A stretch of 64,000 nucleotides of DNA from Pirellula sp. (GTDB lineage Bacteria > Planctomycetota > Planctomycetia > Pirellulales > PNKZ01): the NCBI GenBank assembly GCA_013822735.1, contig PNKZ01000002.1:496001-560000 (forward strand), given 5' to 3'. This document shows positions 8,963-61,894 of this stretch, one piece after another (position 1 is the stretch's first letter; each line of letters opens with the position of its first letter). Below the pieces are notes generated by a model, which saw nothing but the letters and a program-made list of their open reading frames with translations, made no database searches and was not told the DNA's origin. A program made the position numbers and the translations under genes.

Positions 8963-13297
<4,335 letters not shown>

Positions 13298-50664: not shown

Positions 50665-50780
50665 GAGATGCCTCGCAAGAATGGGGTTTGAGACGTTGCG
50701 TAAGCGCCGGCGGTGCAAGCGGCGTCAAAGTCGGCGGAACCGTTAAAGTTTGCGCATTTTCTCGGTCGAATCTAGGGGCG

Positions 50781-53700
50781 ATGAACCGCATCTGCCCTAC
50801 TACCGGTCCGTACACGCCGCGCGACGCCGTGAGCGTCGCTGCGGCGATGCATTGGGCGCTCTTATGGGCGATCTCCACCGCGTTCATTCTAACGAACTCC
50901 GGCTGCACGCGCACGCAATATCATCGCCAGGCCGATCGCGAAGTCACGACGATTCTCAACCAGAAGAATATGCCCGGACGCTGGGGGCTTCCCGGCTTCC
51001 GGCTCGAATACGACCCGCGCAGCCGGTACTTCGACCCGACGAATCCCGATCATCCGCCGATGCCGCCGGACGATCCGTACTCGCACGTCTTCATGCACTA
51101 CGTCGACGGCATGCACGGCGCGCGCAACTACCACGTCGACGGCGACCTCAAGAGCCTCCCCAATCCCGCCTGGCGCACGCAGCTCGCGTCTTACAACACC
51201 TTCGACGCAGACGGCGCGCTCCATCTCACGCTCGACGACGCCGTGCAGTTGGCCGTGATCCACGAGCCCGACTGGCGCACGCAGATCGAAGAGTTGTACT
51301 TCTCGGCGCTCGACGTCAGCACGGAGCGGTTTCGCTTCGACACGCAATTCTTCGGCGGCTTCACGAACTTCCAGTATACGCATCTCAGCCGCGAAGCGCC
51401 CGGTGCCGGCGGCATCTCGCGCGACATTCTCACCTCCCCCGGCTACCTGCAGGCGCAGCGCAGATTTGCGGCCGGCGGCCAACTCCTCGTCGGCTTCGCC
51501 AATACGATCGTCTGGCAATTCGCCGGACCCGATACCAACGCCAACACGTCGCTCATCAACTTCAGCTTCATTCAGCCGCTCTTGCGCGCCGGCGGTCGAC
51601 GCTTCATTCTCGAACAGCTCACCATCGTCGAACGGGCCATGCTCTCGAACCTCCGGGCCTTCGAGCGCTATCGGCAAGGCTTCTATACCAACCTCGCGGT
51701 CGGCGACGGCGGCACGACCGGCGCCCAGCGTCGCGGCGGCTTCTTCGGCGGCACCGGCCTCACCGGCTTTAGCGGCCAAGGGTCCACCGGCTTCGGCGGC
51801 GTCGGCGATGCCACAGGCTTCGGCCGTGCGGGCGGCGCGGCGGCCGGCAACGGCGGGGCCGTCACGGGAGGCTTTGCCGGCGGCGGCGCCGGAACGCTCG
51901 GCGGCTACGTCGGGCTGCTGCAAACCACGCAACAAATCCGCAACACGCAACAGAACCTCAACGCGCAACTCCGCACGCTCAAGCTGCTGCAGGCCAACCT
52001 CGAAGCCGGCACGATCGATATCGCGCAGGTCGACCAATTCCGCCAAAACATCGAAACGGCCCGCGCGACGCTCCTGCAAAGCCGCATCGGGCTGGCAAAC
52101 ACGTTTGAGACCTACAAGCGCACGCAGATCGGCTTGCCTCCCGATCTTGAAATGTCGCTCGACGACGACATGATCGAACAGTTTCAGTTCATCGATCCCG
52201 AGACGAACGCCTTCTATGAGCAGCTCGAAGAGTTTGTCGAAGAACTCGGCAATCTGCCGGCGGAGCCCGACCTCGACGTGCTGAAGATGGCCCTCGATCG
52301 CTTGGACGCTTACCGCGACGACGCCGCCGACAACCTCGCCGAGATCCGGCGCGATCTGGAGTTGCTCGATTCGCGCATTCCGACGCGCAAGCTGACCATC
52401 TCCGCGGAAGAGGCGGCGCTGCTCGACAACGACGTCAAATTGCTCAAGGAGAGCTTCACCGACTTGGAGCAATTGTTCCAAGCGGGCGAAGCGCATGCCG
52501 CCGCGTTGCGCCAAGAACTCGGCCCGACGACGCGCAAGAAGTCGATCGAAAGCCTCGTCGTCACCGCCAAAGAACTCGCGCTGCTGGTCCAAGAAGCGTC
52601 GCTCGTGCAGGTCCGAGCCCGGTTGGAAAGCGTGACGTTGAGTCCCGTGTCGCTCGATCCGAAGCTCGCGCTCGCCGTCGCGCGGGCCAACCGCTACGAC
52701 TGGATGAACAACCGTGCGGCGCTCGTCGATTCTTGGCGCCTCATCGCTTACAACGCCCGCTCGTTGTTGGCGACGCTCAACGTTACGATCGACGGCAGCC
52801 TCGGCACGCGGGGCGACAACCCCGTGAAGTTCCAATCCGAAACCGGCACGCTGCGCGCCGGCCTACAGTTCGACGCGCCGTTCACGCGCTTGGTCGAGCG
52901 CAACAATTACGTGTCCGCGTTGATCGAGTATCAACGCGACCGCCGGCAGCTCATTCAATTTGAAGACGGCGTGAACCAAACCTTGCGTCAGTCGCTCCGC
53001 TCGCTGGAGCAACTCGAAGTGAATTTGGAAATCCAACGTCGCGCCGTGACCATCGCAACGCGACGCGTCGATCAGACGCGCGAAGTGTTGAGCAAGCCGC
53101 CGGAACCGACGGTGCCGGGCCAAGCCGCGGCCGGCCTCGGCCCCACGGCCGCGCTCAATCTGCTCACGGCCTTAAACGACTTGCAGGCCTCGCAAAATAA
53201 TTTCATGAGCGTTTGGCTCAACCACTACGCGGCCCGCATGGTGTTCATGCGCGAGCTCGGGCTCATGAAGCTGGACGATCGCAACCTGTGGATCGACGAA
53301 CCGCTCGACCAAGCGCTGGCCACGGCCGAGGTTTGCTTCGAAGACGAGCTGCCGCCGGACGTCCCGCGCGAATGGTTCGATGCGCTCGAACAATTGCCGC
53401 CGCCGAAAGAAGAGGGCTTGCCGCGGGCCGACCAAGATCAAATCGATGCTCTGCCGGTACCCGTGCCGCCCACCCCGGGTTTCGTACCGGGCGAGGTCGA
53501 CGAGAAGTCGGGCATCCCGATTCCGCAGATGTCGCCGATGCCGACCTTGAAGCCGGTGCCGCAATCGGAGACGCCGCCGATGCCGATGCCGCCCAACCTT
53601 CCAACGGAGCCCCGCCTGGTGCCGCCGACCAACGGCGGTTCAACGGTGCCGCAAGGTGCGCGGCGACGGCCCGCGCCCGGCAATCGCACCGCGGCCTCTG

Positions 53701-53906
53701 AGTCGCAACCCTCGCCGTTCGAGCAATTCGGTCGGAAGATGTTGGGGAACTCTCCCGTGCGACAAGCGTCGCATACGGCGCCGTTGCCGCAGACGAAGAT
53801 GCCGCAACCTCCGGCACTGCTCCCGGAAGTTTCCGAAGTCGATCGACTCCCGGCCGGCAACGGCGCCGTCGCGCGAGAACTCTTCGGAACGCCTCCGACG
53901 CCGTAG
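50781..53906 (+). CDS. TolC-like outer-membrane efflux protein with Gly-rich and Pro-rich inserts
   Basis: The 1041-residue protein begins with a signal sequence that ends ILTNSGC, a weak lipobox. It carries two outer-membrane-efflux repeats (LTLDDAVQLAVIHEPDWRTQ; later AVARANRYDWMNNRAALVDS), with long coiled helices rich in Gln, Leu and Arg. TolC itself has about 490 residues. The excess comes from a Gly-rich insert (about residues 308-378), a helical middle part and a Pro-rich C-terminal tail of about 160 residues. The start is the ATG at 50781, after AGGGG. The likely partners HlyD (57019) and MacB-like (58964) lie 3.1 kb downstream across a repeat-bracketed island. Confidence 0.85.
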   Translation: MNRICPTTGPYTPRDAVSVAAAMHWALLWAISTAFILTNSGCTRTQYHRQADREVTTILNQKNMPGRWGLPGFRLEYDPRSRYFDPTNPDHPPMPPDDPYSHVFMHYVDGMHGARNYHVDGDLKSLPNPAWRTQLASYNTFDADGALHLTLDDAVQLAVIHEPDWRTQIEELYFSALDVSTERFRFDTQFFGGFTNFQYTHLSREAPGAGGISRDILTSPGYLQAQRRFAAGGQLLVGFANTIVWQFAGPDTNANTSLINFSFIQPLLRAGGRRFILEQLTIVERAMLSNLRAFERYRQGFYTNLAVGDGGTTGAQRRGGFFGGTGLTGFSGQGSTGFGGVGDATGFGRAGGAAAGNGGAVTGGFAGGGAGTLGGYVGLLQTTQQIRNTQQNLNAQLRTLKLLQANLEAGTIDIAQVDQFRQNIETARATLLQSRIGLANTFETYKRTQIGLPPDLEMSLDDDMIEQFQFIDPETNAFYEQLEEFVEELGNLPAEPDLDVLKMALDRLDAYRDDAADNLAEIRRDLELLDSRIPTRKLTISAEEAALLDNDVKLLKESFTDLEQLFQAGEAHAAALRQELGPTTRKKSIESLVVTAKELALLVQEASLVQVRARLESVTLSPVSLDPKLALAVARANRYDWMNNRAALVDSWRLIAYNARSLLATLNVTIDGSLGTRGDNPVKFQSETGTLRAGLQFDAPFTRLVERNNYVSALIEYQRDRRQLIQFEDGVNQTLRQSLRSLEQLEVNLEIQRRAVTIATRRVDQTREVLSKPPEPTVPGQAAAGLGPTAALNLLTALNDLQASQNNFMSVWLNHYAARMVFMRELGLMKLDDRNLWIDEPLDQALATAEVCFEDELPPDVPREWFDALEQLPPPKEEGLPRADQDQIDALPVPVPPTPGFVPGEVDEKSGIPIPQMSPMPTLKPVPQSETPPMPMPPNLPTEPRLVPPTNGGSTVPQGARRRPAPGNRTAASESQPSPFEQFGRKMLGNSPVRQASHTAPLPQTKMPQPPALLPEVSEVDRLPAGNGAVARELFGTPPTP

Positions 53907-54051: not shown

Positions 54052-54300
54052 CACGGGTGGCCCAGGTTGCTCCGCAACCTGGGTTCACAAGAGGCCCGAG
54101 GGCATTAGCTCCCGCCAATGGATCACAGCTCCGACTGAGCACCTGACACGGATCGCTGATCGCCAAAGCCGTAATTCGTCGGTATCGATTGCACGGGTGC
54201 GAGCATTGTGCAGGACTTCCGGTGCGGCAACAATTGGTTGAACAAAACCAGCGTCAGCCTCCGGTAAACCCAGGTTGCGGAGCAACCTGGGCCACCCGTG
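54052..54300. mobile_element. 249-bp MITE/BIME-like element, copy 1
   Basis: The element has terminal inverted repeats of about 37 bp with one mismatch (CACGGGTGGCCCAGGTTGCT at the left end). Each terminal repeat contains a perfect 10-bp hairpin, CCCAGGTTGC/GCAACCTGGG, with a 3-nt loop (54061-54083 and 54269-54291). GTGG sits at the outer base of each stem, as in REP sequences moved by RAYT transposases. No protein is encoded inside. A second copy lies at 56369-56621. Clear target duplications were not found. The rest of the TolC-SUKH gap (54301-54485) shows no gene. Confidence 0.75.
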
Positions 54301-54485
54301 CGCTAGACGGACGAAGCGTGTTTTTTGCGTACATTGCCGAATCCGTCTGCCCACCACGCAATCAGGCGCCGACCTACAAATCGTAACGCCAAGCAAATTC
54401 TTGACTTCCGACTCGCGCGCGAATTAAGCTCCGGAGCTATACAGACGAATCCTGTCCAATAACTAGTTAGCCGGCAGAGGTGCGC

Positions 54486-54914
54486 GTGACACTCGACGAG
54501 GCATTCGCGGAACTCCGTCGCAGGAACGAGCCCGTTCTAAAGCCGCCCCGGTTGCCGACCGAGGATGAGGTGAACGTCGCCGAAGGGAAGCTTGGCGTCC
54601 CTTTTCATTCTGACTACCGTCGGTTCTTGCTGGAGGCGAGCGACATCAGTTTCAGCGTCTTGGAGCCGGCTACGATCACAATCCCTGGGGCGCATACCGA
54701 TTTATTCCGCATCGCGCAACGGGCGCGAGGTACGTGGAAAGTGCCCGTGGAGTTGGTGCCGATCTGCGAGGACAACGCGGACATTTACTGTATGACACCT
54801 GACGGTCGAGTGATCTTCTGGTCGCACGACATGCAGGCACCGAGCGGTGCGGAGTGGCCCAATCTGGCCGCTTGGATTGAGGATGTCTGGATGTTCGACT
54901 ATGAGGCCGGCTAA
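54486..54914 (+). CDS. SMI1/KNR4 (SUKH) family protein
   Basis: The 142-residue protein carries the SUKH core: LPTEDEVNVAEGKLGVPFHS followed by DYRRFLLEASD, then PICEDNADIYCMTPDGRVIFWSHD in two overlapping pieces. Bacterial SUKH proteins are mostly immunity proteins against polymorphic toxins, but a toxin gene is not seen nearby. The GTG at 54486 is preceded by AGAGG 5 nt upstream. The gene lies in the island between the two 250-bp elements, next to another small unknown gene. Confidence 0.82.
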   Translation: MTLDEAFAELRRRNEPVLKPPRLPTEDEVNVAEGKLGVPFHSDYRRFLLEASDISFSVLEPATITIPGAHTDLFRIAQRARGTWKVPVELVPICEDNADIYCMTPDGRVIFWSHDMQAPSGAEWPNLAAWIEDVWMFDYEAG

Positions 54915-55024
54915 CCAGTCGCTCCACCTGACACGGCGACTTATACTCAATTCAAATTCAACGTCTCGCCTGCCGCCGTGCAGGTGACCTATTACGTTCG
55001 GCGGCGGATTGAGTGGAGGGGCGA

Positions 55025-55522
55025 ATGTCGCGGCTGACGTGGGCAGACTTGCTGATAGATGACGTTAGCCCCGAGCAGTTCCGCGCTTGGCTCGCCCCGT
55101 GGGCCGGAACGGTGAACGGCCGGGTTGCCCCTGCGTTCCTAAGCAAATTCGGCTTCTGGTTCCTTCGTCGCCCGGAGGGGCACGTCGAGATGCTGGACGT
55201 GTTCACCGGCCAGTTGCATCGGGCCGCCCACAGCTACGACGAGTTCATGCGTGAGGTCAACGAGCAGTGGTGGCAGGAGGTGTACCTTTTGTCTGAGTTG
55301 GTGTTCCAACTTCACGCGGCGGGCAAAGTGCCGGGGCCCGGCCAGTGCTACGCGCTTGCCCCGCATCCGGCGCTCGGCGGCCCCAACCCGGCTAATGGAG
55401 ACGCCGTCGATCCACGGTTCGTAGTTGTCACCGATGTGGTAGTTTGGCAGTCGATCTGTGCGCAATCATTGGGGGTAGGCCAAGACGCCGAACCAGGCGC
55501 TCCAGCAGACGGCGGGGCATAA
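55025..55522 (+). CDS. Unknown small protein, possible immunity-type
   Basis: The 165-residue product is not assigned. It is Trp-rich and soluble, with FGFWFLRRPEGHVEMLDVFT and FVVVTDVVVWQSICAQSLG as the clearest stretches. The overall look (a domain read as FG...LD..TG and a C-terminal D.VVWQSI) recalls Tdi1-like immunity proteins, but this is a weak impression. GGAGGG lies 4 nt ahead of the ATG at 55025, a strong ribosome site. It follows the SUKH gene after 110 bp in the repeat-bracketed island. Confidence 0.55.
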   Translation: MSRLTWADLLIDDVSPEQFRAWLAPWAGTVNGRVAPAFLSKFGFWFLRRPEGHVEMLDVFTGQLHRAAHSYDEFMREVNEQWWQEVYLLSELVFQLHAAGKVPGPGQCYALAPHPALGGPNPANGDAVDPRFVVVTDVVVWQSICAQSLGVGQDAEPGAPADGGA

Positions 55523-56322: not shown

Positions 56323-56368
56323 GCATGCGTGGAATTAGGCTTCTGAACCCCTTGAACTAATTGCGGCG

Positions 56369-56621
56369 CACGGGTGGCCCAGGTTGCTTTGCAACCTGGG
56401 TTTACAAGAGGCCGAGGGATTTTGCTCCCGCCGATCCATCACCTCTCCGACTGGGTGATGGAGTGTCTGACGCAGATTGCTATTCTCCGGTCCTTGAATC
56501 GCTGGTGCCGATCGCACTTGAACGATCACTGTTCGGGATGACCTGTGCACTAACTGGTTGTGACAGGATCGGCTTGAGCCTCTCGTCGACCCAGGTTGCG
56601 GAGCAACCTGGGCCACCCATG
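56369..56621. mobile_element. 253-bp MITE/BIME-like element, copy 2
   Basis: The left end repeats copy 1 over about 80 bp (GGGTGGCCCAGGTTGC, then AACCTGGGTT, AACGAGG-like and CTCCCGCC blocks), including the same 10-bp palindrome. The right end carries CCCAGGTTGC/GCAACCTGGG and GGCCACCCATG. The interior differs more from copy 1. Same order and orientation as copy 1 support an intact element of fixed length rather than chance palindromes. Confidence 0.72.
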
Positions 56622-56655
56622 TTCTGGCGCGTGCAGATGCGAAGCACCAAGCCGC

Positions 56656-56763
56656 CTGGGGCATCACCTCGTTCTGCCCCAGCCACCCGCGACGACGTAA
56701 GGTCGGGACAAAACCAAAGACGGCCTCTCGTAGACCCAGGTTGCGGAGCAACCTGGGCCACCC
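56656..56763. repeat. Two further palindrome copies beside element 2
   Basis: CTGGGGC/GCCCCAG at 56656-56682 is the inverted relative of the hairpin at 49959-49985. CCCAGGTTGC/GCAACCTGGG at 56735-56757 repeats the end palindrome of the 250-bp elements without a matching left end, so it looks like a truncated copy. Both are followed by CCACCC. The remaining spacer to 57018 holds only short GC hairpins, such as CCGCGG/CCGCGG at 56810-56825, and no gene. Confidence 0.68.
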
Positions 56764-57018
56764 CGGGGGCGTTAGAACCGGCGTTTTCTTACCGCTGCGG
56801 TAGGTCATTCCGCGGAAATCCGCGGTAGATAGCCCGACTGCAGAATTGCCATTTGCTTGGCGGCTGCGGACAATGGTACGGCTGGTCGCATTGTCGGCCT
56901 GCGGCGGCGCAACCCCCTTGTACCGTCGAAACTTCCGCTCGCCGTCGGGGTTCCTAACGCAGGGAAGGGTTCCAGCCCCCCACGCCGTCGGCCCGCACGC
57001 CTTACGAAAGCCTCGCCC

Positions 57019-58944
57019 ATGAATTCCTTCGGGCCCCCCGAATCGGAATCGCCGCTGCCGCTCCCTGCCACGCCCGCGCCGGCCGGCCTTACCGCGTCGC
57101 CGGAAGCCGATCCCCGCAAGGCGGCTCAGATCGCGGCCTTGTTTCGCAACGACGGTAGTGAAACCGATCGCCAGGCCCTGCCTCGTTCCGGCGCTATGGG
57201 TCGGATCTTCGGTCGCGTGATCGTGTTCGCGGTGTTGCTGTCGATCGTGGTCGGCGGCAGTTGGGCCGCGGCGAAGTACTCGGGCCTGTTCGACGAGAAG
57301 GCCGCCGTGAAGCAGATGACCCATAAAGTGGAACGGGGCGATCTCGTGATCACCGTAACGCAGAAGGGGAACGTCGAGAGCGCGGCCAACATTGAAATTC
57401 GTTGCTTGGTGGCCGGCGGCGGCATCATCAAAGATATCGTGACCGACGGCACGATCGTGAAAGAGGGAGATCAACTCGTCGAACTCGATTCGGCGGCGAT
57501 CGACGAACAGATTCTGCAACAACGCATCGGCTACGAGAAGGCCCGGGCCATTCGCGACCAGGCCAAGAACGATTTGGAAGCGGCGAAGATTGCGCTGCGC
57601 GAATACGTCGAAGGGACCTTTAAGAAGGAAGTGCAAATCGTCGACGGCCAGATCACGATCGCCGAAGAGAATTTGCGCAGCGCGCAGAACACGCTCCTCT
57701 ACACGGAGCGGATGTTTCGCAAGGCGTACGTAACGCCGCTGCAACTTGAGGCGCAGCAGTTTGCCGTGAAGCGTGCGCAATTAGAACTCGATACCGCGAA
57801 GACCGCGAAGCGCGTGCTCGAAGAGTTCACGTATCTGAAGATGAAGAACGACCTGGAGACGCAGGTTGCCACGGCCGGCGCCAAGGCCTCGAGCGAGCAG
57901 ACGGCTTTTGAATTGGAAGAATCGAAGCTCAAACGGCTGGAGACGCAAAAGCTCAACTGCCTCATCGCCGCGCCGCAAAACGGCATGGTGGTGTACGCCA
58001 ACGATAGCGGCGGCAGTCGATTCGGCGGCAGCAGCGATCGGCCGAAGATCGAGGAAGGGGCCACGGTGCGCGAAGGGCAGGTCATTTTGCGCGTGCCCGA
58101 CCTCAGGCAGATGCAGGTGCGCGTGACGGTGCACGAATCGAAAGTGGAAAGCTTGAAGGCGGGAATGCCGGCTTCGATTCGCATTCAAAACCGGAAGTTG
58201 ACCGGCTACGTGACTTTCATTGCGAATCAGCCGGAATCGACGAGCATGTTTTCGGCCAACGTGAAGGAATATGCCGCGTTTGTCCGTGTCGACGGCGAGC
58301 AGCACGATTTGAAGCCGGGCATGACGGCCGAAGTGGAAATTTTGGTCGACGAGAAGAAGGGGGTGCTGACCGTGCCGGTGCAGTGCATCGTCGAGCAGGC
58401 CGGCCGGCTTTACGCTTGGCGCGAGACGCCGCAAGGCTTTGAGAAAACGGAGATCAAGCTCGGCACCGGCGACGATCGCAAGGTGGAAGTGATCTCGGGA
58501 CTCAGCGAGAACGACGTCGTGTTGCAGAACCCGCCGGAGCGCTCGGAAGGAAACTTCGCGACGTCGCCGGGCTCGCGTTCGCAATTTGGCGCAGGGCCGC
58601 GCGGCACGAAGCCGAGCGGGGAAGCGCCTAGTGGTGGAGCGCCGAGCGACGGTGCGCCGGCGGCCAATGGCGCGACGCCAGGAAGCGGAGCAGGGCAGGG
58701 GGGACCGGCCGGGAGTCGACCCTCGGGCGGCCGCTCGATGGATGTGATGTCGTTTGATAAAGACGGCGACGGCAAGGTGAGCCGCGCCGAAGCGCCGGAA
58801 CAGATGCAGGCCTTCTTCGATCGCATGGACGGCGACGCCGACGGCTTCATCTCCGCGGCAGAAGCCGCGGCAGCCCGCGCTCGACGCGCGTCGCAGGGTG
58901 GTGCGCCGGGCGGCGTACCCGGCGGCGGCGGACCCGGAACCTAA
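57019..58944 (+). CDS. HlyD-type membrane fusion protein with C-terminal EF-hand pair
   Basis: This is a periplasmic adaptor of a tripartite exporter: a membrane helix near residues 62-85, a barrel-sandwich start (ERGDLVITVTQKGNVESAAN), long coiled-coil hairpins, and a beta-barrel part (TVHESKVESLKAGMPASIRI). After a low-complexity Gly/Ala/Pro linker, two canonical calcium-binding loops end the protein: DKDGDGKVSRAE at 580-591 and DGDADGFISAAE at 604-615. Each has Asp at 1, 3 and 5 and Glu at 12. EF-hands are not part of the usual MFP fold. The protein has 641 residues; the ATG at 57019 gives MNSFGPPESESPLPLPA. A permease gene follows after 19 bp. Confidence 0.85.
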   Translation: MNSFGPPESESPLPLPATPAPAGLTASPEADPRKAAQIAALFRNDGSETDRQALPRSGAMGRIFGRVIVFAVLLSIVVGGSWAAAKYSGLFDEKAAVKQMTHKVERGDLVITVTQKGNVESAANIEIRCLVAGGGIIKDIVTDGTIVKEGDQLVELDSAAIDEQILQQRIGYEKARAIRDQAKNDLEAAKIALREYVEGTFKKEVQIVDGQITIAEENLRSAQNTLLYTERMFRKAYVTPLQLEAQQFAVKRAQLELDTAKTAKRVLEEFTYLKMKNDLETQVATAGAKASSEQTAFELEESKLKRLETQKLNCLIAAPQNGMVVYANDSGGSRFGGSSDRPKIEEGATVREGQVILRVPDLRQMQVRVTVHESKVESLKAGMPASIRIQNRKLTGYVTFIANQPESTSMFSANVKEYAAFVRVDGEQHDLKPGMTAEVEILVDEKKGVLTVPVQCIVEQAGRLYAWRETPQGFEKTEIKLGTGDDRKVEVISGLSENDVVLQNPPERSEGNFATSPGSRSQFGAGPRGTKPSGEAPSGGAPSDGAPAANGATPGSGAGQGGPAGSRPSGGRSMDVMSFDKDGDGKVSRAEAPEQMQAFFDRMDGDADGFISAAEAAAARARRASQGGAPGGVPGGGGPGT

Positions 58945-58963: not shown

Positions 58964-60298
58964 GTGTTCGTCACCAAACTACTGCAGACGTTTCGTCTCG
59001 GCGTGAAGAGCTTGCTCTTGCACAAGCTGCGCTCGGCGCTGGCCGTGTTGGGGATTTTGATCGGCGTCACGGCCGTGATCTGGCTCGTGGCGATGGGCGA
59101 AGGCGTGAGTCATCAGGCCCAGCAGCAGATCAAAGACCTGGGGGCGACGAACATCATTGTGCGCAGCGTGAAGCCGACGATGAGTTCGTCGGCCGCGGCG
59201 GCGGGGAGTTTCTTCGTCGAATATGGGCTGAAAGGGGACGATTTGGCCCGGTTTCGCTCGATTCCGTCGGTGATCGGCACGGTGCCGCTGCGCGAGTTGA
59301 ACCAGAAGGATGCTCGTTATCTCGATCGGCAACTGGATGTGCGCATCGTCGGCTGCCGCGCGCAGTATGCGGAGCTCAACCAGCTTCGCATCGCGTCCGG
59401 ACGCTTCATCGCCGACGAAGACGAACGGAACGTCGAGAACGTTTGCGTGCTGGGTTCGGAAACGGCCCGCACGTTGTTTCGTTACGAAGATCCGCTCGGC
59501 AGGTCGATCTTGCTCGACGACAAGATCTATGTGGTCGTGGGCGTGACGGAGTTTCGCGACGCGACGGGAAGCATCGGCGGGAGCTTCAGCGGCCAAGACT
59601 ACAATCGCGACGTTTACATTCCGCTGGAAACGCTCAAGGCCCGGATCGGCACGATGGTGCTCACCGCGAAGGCCGGCGGGCGCGAGGGAGAGATCGTCGA
59701 CCTGAGCCAGATCACGGTGACGGTGCGCGATATTGAAGACGTGGATGAAACGTCGTCGATCATTCGCCGGCTGTTGGAGAGATTTCATCCGAACAACGAT
59801 TACGCGCTCGTGGTGCCGAAGGAGCTGCTGCGGCAAGCGGAGGTGACGCGGATGATGTTCAACGCGCTCTTGATCGTGGTGGCGGGGATCTCGCTCTTGG
59901 TCGGCGGCATCGGCATCATGAACATCATGCTGGCGACCGTGACGGAGCGCACGCGCGAGATCGGCATCCGCCGCGCGCTGGGAGCGAAGCAGCGCGATAT
60001 CGTGTACCAGTTTCTCTCCGAGACGTTGGTGCTCTCGGCGACCGGCGGATTGCTCGGCGTGTTGCTAGGGTTCTCGGTGCCGTATGTCGTAATGAGCGCG
60101 CGGTGGTTCGTCGGCGAATTCTTCCCGGCGGCGATGGCGTCGATCCCGCCGAACATCCGCGACATTGCGCCGCGGATCGCGCCGTGGAGCGTGATCGCGG
60201 CGTTCTTCATTTCGATCTTCGTGGGGGTGGTGTTCGGCATGTACCCGGCGCGGCGTGCGTCGCAGATGGACCCCATCGACGCCCTGCGGCACGAATAG
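58964..60298 (+). CDS. MacB-type ABC permease without an ATPase domain
   Basis: The 444-residue protein has a first membrane helix near the start (LRSALAVLGILIGVTAVIWL), a large periplasmic domain of the MacB_PCD type, and three C-terminal helices of the FtsX fold. These include GGIGIMNIMLATVTERTREI followed by GIRRALGAKQRDI. MacB proteins normally carry an N-terminal ATPase or have a separate ATPase gene beside them. Neither is seen here. The GTG at 58964 has GGAG 11 nt upstream. It is 19 bp behind the HlyD gene, so the two likely form one operon. Confidence 0.88.
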   Translation: MFVTKLLQTFRLGVKSLLLHKLRSALAVLGILIGVTAVIWLVAMGEGVSHQAQQQIKDLGATNIIVRSVKPTMSSSAAAAGSFFVEYGLKGDDLARFRSIPSVIGTVPLRELNQKDARYLDRQLDVRIVGCRAQYAELNQLRIASGRFIADEDERNVENVCVLGSETARTLFRYEDPLGRSILLDDKIYVVVGVTEFRDATGSIGGSFSGQDYNRDVYIPLETLKARIGTMVLTAKAGGREGEIVDLSQITVTVRDIEDVDETSSIIRRLLERFHPNNDYALVVPKELLRQAEVTRMMFNALLIVVAGISLLVGGIGIMNIMLATVTERTREIGIRRALGAKQRDIVYQFLSETLVLSATGGLLGVLLGFSVPYVVMSARWFVGEFFPAAMASIPPNIRDIAPRIAPWSVIAAFFISIFVGVVFGMYPARRASQMDPIDALRHE

Positions 60299-61492: not shown

Positions 61493-61894
61493 ATGGCCGA
61501 CGCCGCACAAGAATTGCTTTCCCTCAATCAAAAGCTTCTGGTCGCCATTGTCGGCGGCGATTGGAAAGGGTACGCCGACCTATGCGATCCGACGCTCACC
61601 TGCTTCGAACCGGAAGCCCGCGGACATGTCGTCGAAGGGATGCCGTTCCACAAGTTCTACTTCGATCTCGGCGCGGGAAGTCCGAAGCCGGCCGTCGGCA
61701 CGCAGGTGACGATGGCGTCGCCCCACGTGCGATTGATGGGTGCCGACGCCGCGGTGTTGAGCTATATCCGCTTGAATCAGAAACTGAATTCAGCGGGCGA
61801 GCCGGTGACCGTCGCCGTAGAAGAAACACGGGTCTGGCAGCGAATCGGCGGCGCTTGGAAACACGTGCATTTCCACCGTTCGATGCCGAGCTAG
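61493..61894 (+). CDS. Stand-alone CaMKII association-domain-like protein
   Basis: The 133-residue protein matches the CaMKII association domain (SnoaL/NTF2-like fold): LLSLNQKLLVAIVGGDWKGY, then LTCFEPEARGHVVEGMPFHK and FYF. In bacteria such proteins form ring-shaped oligomers of unclear function, and no kinase domain is attached here. There is no signal peptide. It follows thyX after 101 bp; the spacer carries tandem ATAACTC-like words (61451-61472). Start at the ATG at 61493. Confidence 0.82.
   Translation: MADAAQELLSLNQKLLVAIVGGDWKGYADLCDPTLTCFEPEARGHVVEGMPFHKFYFDLGAGSPKPAVGTQVTMASPHVRLMGADAAVLSYIRLNQKLNSAGEPVTVAVEETRVWQRIGGAWKHVHFHRSMPS

Follow-up and report, generated by a model that had tools for sequence, protein, structure and literature searches.

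A MacA-type export adaptor of a planctomycete with a tethered pair of EF hands at its C-terminus

The window (the whole stretch of DNA analysed: 64,000 nucleotides of a Pirellula sp., contig PNKZ01000002.1, positions 496,001 to 560,000) encodes on its forward strand a periplasmic adaptor of the MacA type that ends in two EF-hand loops. The open reading frame (57019..58944) starts with ATG at 57019, stops at 58944 and specifies 641 amino acids. Pfam matches the whole protein to HlyD_D23 (E 9.3e-9) and HlyD_3 (E 3.5e-8); the NCBIfam model TIGR01730 matches at E 2.5e-25, marginally below its cut-off, and the NCBIfam MacA equivalog at 59.5 bits, where its cut-off is 342. The likeness to MacA is found by profile and by fold: MacA heads the PDB profile search with the adaptor core (4dk0, E 9e-35; 5nik, E 8.9e-28), Foldseek matches the adaptor model to the MacA fold of 9qgy_G and 5nik_D, and VIA-align gives Z 18.7 over 323 aligned residues (rmsd 17.9) for 9qgy_G and Z 18.7 (rmsd 10.0) for 4dk0. 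Judged by its sequence, the adaptor is kin of MacA without being of the E. coli orthologue type. AlphaFold2 predicts a membrane helix near the N-terminus (amino acids 61-87; 57199..57279, forward strand), which would place the remainder of the protein in the periplasm, and a long α-hairpin at amino acids 159-312 (57493..57954, forward strand; pLDDT 96-98). Beyond the core, which is modelled with high confidence as far as residue 505 or so, the chain runs through a disordered linker into an EF module that is again ordered.

The next gene specifies a MacB-like permease without a fused ATPase (58964..60298, forward strand; Pfam MacB_PCD, E 1.4e-35, and FtsX, E 4.1e-21). Its GTG start, 19 nucleotides past the adaptor's stop, was picked by eye; the listed open reading frame begins at 58898. 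With this permease directly after the adaptor, and with MacA ranking first among the adaptor's PDB matches in sequence and fold alike, the assignment to a MacB-type exporter made in the first-pass annotation stands. A TolC-like outer membrane factor (Pfam OEP, E 6.5e-9) is encoded upstream on the same strand by an open reading frame of 1072 amino acids (50688..53906, its start approximate), which contains an insert rich in Gly and extends at its C-terminus into a Pro-rich stretch; the homologues in relatives are mostly 800-1100 amino acids long or more. Many relatives have the TolC-like gene directly 5' of the adaptor; in the window three unrelated-looking genes lie between the two. (That interval holds, at 54480-55519, a SUKH-type gene and a gene that weakly matches the type VI secretion immunity protein Tdi1, and a palindromic sequence around CCCAGGTTGCGGAGCAACCTGGG occurs in five intergenic copies, in both orientations, at 54052-54303 and 56366-56770. 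Downstream, at 61508-61891, a stretch of 128 amino acids matches the CaMKII association domain, of the SnoaL-like fold family, at E 1.9e-39. Rfam finds no RNA between 50000 and 64000.) The adaptor thus shares with MacA its N-terminal membrane helix and the nearby genes for a MacB-like permease and a TolC-like protein; the difference from the MacA system is that the ATPase is neither fused to the permease nor encoded by a linked gene in the window.

What MacA lacks is the part of the adaptor that follows the membrane-proximal domain: a linker and a pair of EF hands. The linker, approximately amino acids 506-578 (58534..58752, forward strand), is flexible and rich in Gly, Ala and Pro, as pLDDT (below 50 at amino acids 528-572 in AlphaFold2), composition (20% G, 13% A and 11% P across 59 tails) and dN values (given below) all indicate; among tails its length ranges from 15 to 116 residues. 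Then come, on the same strand, EF loop 1 (DKDGDGKVSRAE, amino acids 580-591; 58756..58791), a segment of 12 residues with Pro at its second position, defined by alignment and helical in the models (APEQMQAFFDRM; 58792..58827), EF loop 2 (DGDADGFISAAE, amino acids 604-615; 58828..58863), and an exiting helix, in AlphaFold2, that reaches amino acid 626 and gives way to a Gly/Pro-rich end (58864..58941). The first-pass annotation had read here a HlyD-type adaptor with a low-complexity linker and two C-terminal EF loops, acidic at positions 1, 3, 5 and 12: translation and Pfam bear out the architecture, and both loops have the acidic residues in question. They also have everything else that defines an EF-hand loop: 12 residues, ligands at 1, 3, 5 and 12, Gly at position 6 and a hydrophobic residue at position 8. 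The profile search that the annotation called for depends on how much protein is presented. In the whole adaptor EF-hand_1 scores 25.1 bits (E 1.1e-5) against a cut-off of 25.4 and a second EF-hand match 24.1 against 25.9, each just under; the isolated 136-residue tail scores above both cut-offs (EF-hand_5, 30.5 bits against 25.9; EF-hand_1, 29.7 against 25.4), and EF-hand families are its only Pfam matches. A chance origin of the loops is ruled out by shuffling: 100,000 shuffles of the window's tail gave no loop pair, and shuffling the tails of 84 adaptors gave a pair in 0.005 rows on average and in one at most, where 59 are observed.

The EF module is predicted to be a compact, calmodulin-like helix-loop-helix lobe. 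Its pLDDT is 93-94 across amino acids 581-620 in the full AlphaFold2 model and about 83-88 in a second model; in both, DSSP pairs strands 586-588 and 610-612 within one chain, with flanking helices. The nearest folds are EF lobes such as calmodulin, at Z 6-7 (Foldseek with the EF-only model returns weak E-values, the best 0.056). Leaving the membrane-proximal domain as it does, the tail should lie in the periplasm, close to the permease, if the topology is as predicted.

How widely is the tail held? Of 277 relatives from a scan of named genomes the best 80, all from Planctomycetota, were retained; with the window's adaptor, its paralogue in the same genome and two second adaptors they make up 84 rows. 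A loop pair, its members 23-30 residues apart, is present in 59 of the 84, a frequency biased upward, since the query or alignment against which relatives were ranked contained the tail; 19 rows have no loop, 3 have a single loop and in 3 the contig ends too early to tell. Frame or sequencing errors do not mask tails: the other frames of the tail-less rows hide no pair. An independent Pfam scan matched EF-hand_1 and EF-hand_6 in 61 of 81 tails at E<=0.001. Six rows (L046, L052, L117, L058, L055 and L065) carry two pairs, that is four loops, in one chain. Counted over 65 pairs, the loop starts are 24 apart (12 residues between loops) in 53, and 47 of these 53 have Pro at the second inter-loop position. 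The survey of homologues upholds the acidic positions: D580, D604 and E615 are invariant in the 24 rows of alignment A1 and throughout A2, whose 48 rows were selected for carrying a pair and exclude truncated rows and tails of at least 175 residues. (Of the 59 paired rows 47 entered A2; 48 loci with a spacing of 24 only entered A4.)

Other samples set the bounds. In a first set of relatives, 25 of 29 readable loci end in a pair by reading; the exceptions are L011, L023 and L025, which have no pair, and L021, where a stop follows loop 1. (L011 and L044 are one gene on a short contig that is possibly misassembled.) A sample of the phylum, again of 29 readable loci, has the pair in both loci of the same class and in none of the 27 outside it, 2 of which are cut before their end; a sample of the class has it in 10 of the 28 loci read, and one family of that class (f69) in none of 14. 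The first set and the class sample were likewise ranked with the tail in the query, which inflates their share of tailed loci. The window's own genome has no pair in 29 other HlyD_3 loci (30 of 39 matches were examined, one other being cut at its end), and the adaptor's paralogue in that genome has no EF tail. As far as these sequences tell, the EF tail is not a local accident and is often kept by relatives across one bacterial class.

The dN values of the window's adaptor against L043, L010 and L045 are, respectively, 0.12, 0.20 and 0.24 for the EF module, 0.13, 0.16 and 0.19 for the core, and 0.55, 0.50 and 0.71 for the linker; dS is near or above 1 in these comparisons, which makes ratios rough. 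They suggest an EF module about as constrained as the core (slightly less so against L010 and L045) and a linker that drifts. A core tree of the quick type separates two old clades, one of 44 rows with the window among them and one of 40, most rows of either being tailed; it calls for at least 15 changes between the tailed and the tail-less state, gain and loss being indistinguishable on it.

The two clades also differ in the place of the ATPase gene. Among loci with a linked permease and at least 1.5 kb beyond it, 12 of the 25 in the first clade carry an ATPase gene 3' of the permease and the other 13, the window being one, carry no linked one; in all 19 of the second clade the ATPase gene sits between those for adaptor and permease. 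The closest thing in the window's genome to a first-clade ATPase is G000:C9:133079-133756 (67% identity), which adjoins the tail-less paralogue; our guess would be that the two pumps share it. Inspection of the clusters common to at least 5 loci revealed no conserved gene for a cargo or partner beside the operon: the forward-strand clusters that recur in many loci correspond to adaptor, permease/ATPase and TolC, those on the minus strand resemble shadow open reading frames, and further small clusters occur in 5-7 loci. A linked cargo gene was rejected on these grounds, the widely shared forward-strand clusters being pump genes only. None of 58 permease rows and none of 35 TolC rows has EF loops. 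(One locus, L076, encodes at 10388-11635, 3' of the permease, a separate EF-hand protein with loops closely resembling those of the adaptor tail.)

In most f69 adaptors the place where the EF pair would be is taken by a different thing, a helical module on a Gly-rich tether (for example ISPEDRQKLRDASDEERKAIMKKAGFTDAEIQQMDQMR; loci L188-L193, L196-L200 and L203-L205, nine of them aligned), for which a Pfam scan gave no convincing match. That this place can hold a different module points to a general slot for tails. (Some adaptors outside the class, L158, L159, L163, L169 and L175, have a C-terminal helical motif of the type MTPEQREEMLRNLTPEQREAL; in the four adaptors scanned Pfam gave no convincing match to it.)

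What, then, might a pair of EF hands do at the end of an export adaptor? From the loops we infer that the tail binds metal, Ca2+ being the likeliest ion. The reading that we favour, tentatively and at somewhat less than an even chance, is that this is the adaptor of a MacAB-TolC-like exporter and that its tethered EF pair is an accessory, constitutively loaded docking arm. The pair would most likely be unfolded in the calcium-poor cytoplasm and would fold around two Ca2+ ions once exported into the calcium-rich periplasm; the loaded lobe could then tether a partner or cargo in the periplasm beside the entrance of the pump. Should the adaptor form hexamers as MacA does, every pump would present six such lobes. 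Pumps of the MacB family take their substrates from the periplasm, according to the accessible text of PMC8277102. The adaptor's operon partners are kept in relatives. A constrained tail on a loose linker, absent from some operons that are otherwise intact, its position being occupied in f69 by a different module, favours an accessory arm over an obligatory gate. Against the docking arm stands the lack of a conserved cargo or partner gene that could be its target.

Two other proposals strike us as unlikely. One is that the adaptor's C-terminus is a dedicated socket for interchangeable small periplasmic modules, the EF version of which would make cargo capture or pump assembly metal-dependent, possibly with a lanmodulin-like rather than a calmodulin-like response to metal. 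The other, of similar standing, is that metal-loaded lobes of neighbouring protomers associate and so stabilise the adaptor hexamer. EF hands commonly pair, a MacA-like ring would bring six copies together, and the six rows with four loops in two pairs could achieve the pairing within one chain; Hans-LanM, for its part, dimerises in a metal-sensitive way (accessible text of PMC10232371). Yet AlphaFold already pairs the two loops inside one chain, and linkers of 15-116 residues are loose for such a task.

Calcium gating, in which Ca2+ on the EF pair would switch the exporter on or off, had been suggested in the first-pass annotation and does not survive well; we regard it as distinctly improbable. 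The EF loops are real, and they sit on an adaptor that adjoins a mechanically driven permease. Relatives should not be able to do without an obligatory gate, however, and this tail is missing from 19 of the 84 rows and from the paralogue, with another module in its stead in f69. A disordered linker would also be a poor transmitter of force. The periplasm usually has about as much Ca2+ as the medium, and ordinary EF sites would accordingly stay full.

Might the tail instead be neutral decoration, a mobile, Gly-rich EF appendage common on exported planctomycete proteins and without function in the pump? Other EF-tailed or tandem EF-hand proteins of the same genome have the same kind of loop pair in Gly-rich surroundings (that of L001 reads DKNGDGKLSKEE, 12 residues, DANGDGQADEKE) and, unlike the adaptor, are by sequence not pump components; L002, L003 and L007 have EF pairs near their C-termini, two of these proteins being sulfatase-like by eye. 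With EF tails on unrelated proteins of the genome, the one on the adaptor could be a general-purpose appendage, and the 15 or more changes of state on the tree point the same way. Against this, the module's dN is low where the linker's is high, its ligand residues are invariant across two old clades, and none of the genome's 29 other HlyD_3 loci examined has the pair. Neutral decoration accordingly seems to us no likelier than gating.

There remains the identity of the metal. By the accessible text of PMC10232371, lanmodulin has three hallmarks: it has four EF hands, these are spaced by 12-13 residues, and one or more of them has Pro at position 2. A PDB sequence search with the 59-residue EF module puts lanmodulin 6mi5 on top (E 4e-8, gapless), because 12 residues separate the loops in both. 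In that spacing the window's pair is lanmodulin-like; it differs in having two EF hands instead of four (most rows have one pair), in Pro at loop position 2, found in 0 of 130 loops of the adaptor family, and in being tethered to a pump adaptor. Membership among the lanmodulins is rejected, four EF hands and Pro2 both being missing. A metallochaperone, or a binder of a lanthanide or transition metal, comparable with the tail of SilB, is very improbable: the 6mi5 match, the hallmark spacing and Asp at position 9 in 39 of 65 second loops would fit it, but Pro2 is absent, most rows have two EF hands, the permease is MacB-like and not a heavy-metal RND pump, and by fold lanmodulin 8fns (Z 6.0) does no better than, and is undistinguished among, the calmodulin rows.

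SilB, the adaptor of a heavy-metal RND pump, ends in a CusF-like, metal-binding metallochaperone domain (accessible text of PMC4446572). The window's adaptor likewise has an extra C-terminal domain of a metal-binding type; it is an EF-hand pair and not a CusF-like barrel (Pfam finds only EF-hand families in the tail, and no CusF-like domain), and its partner is an ABC permease of the MacB type and not a heavy-metal RND pump. Additional domains that bind metal were already known on the adaptors of heavy-metal pumps, as SilB shows, and are a precedent for the arm proposed here. A literature search mostly confined to papers free of subscription, in the parts accessible, turned up no description of an EF-hand tail on an adaptor of the present kind. 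The present adaptor extends the list to ABC exporters of the MacB type: what it bears is a pair of EF hands, retained across one bacterial class. A tail slot of this sort would escape surveys of adaptor sequences that focus on the core; as a short, isolated domain, the EF-hand pair makes a link between calcium and tripartite export testable.
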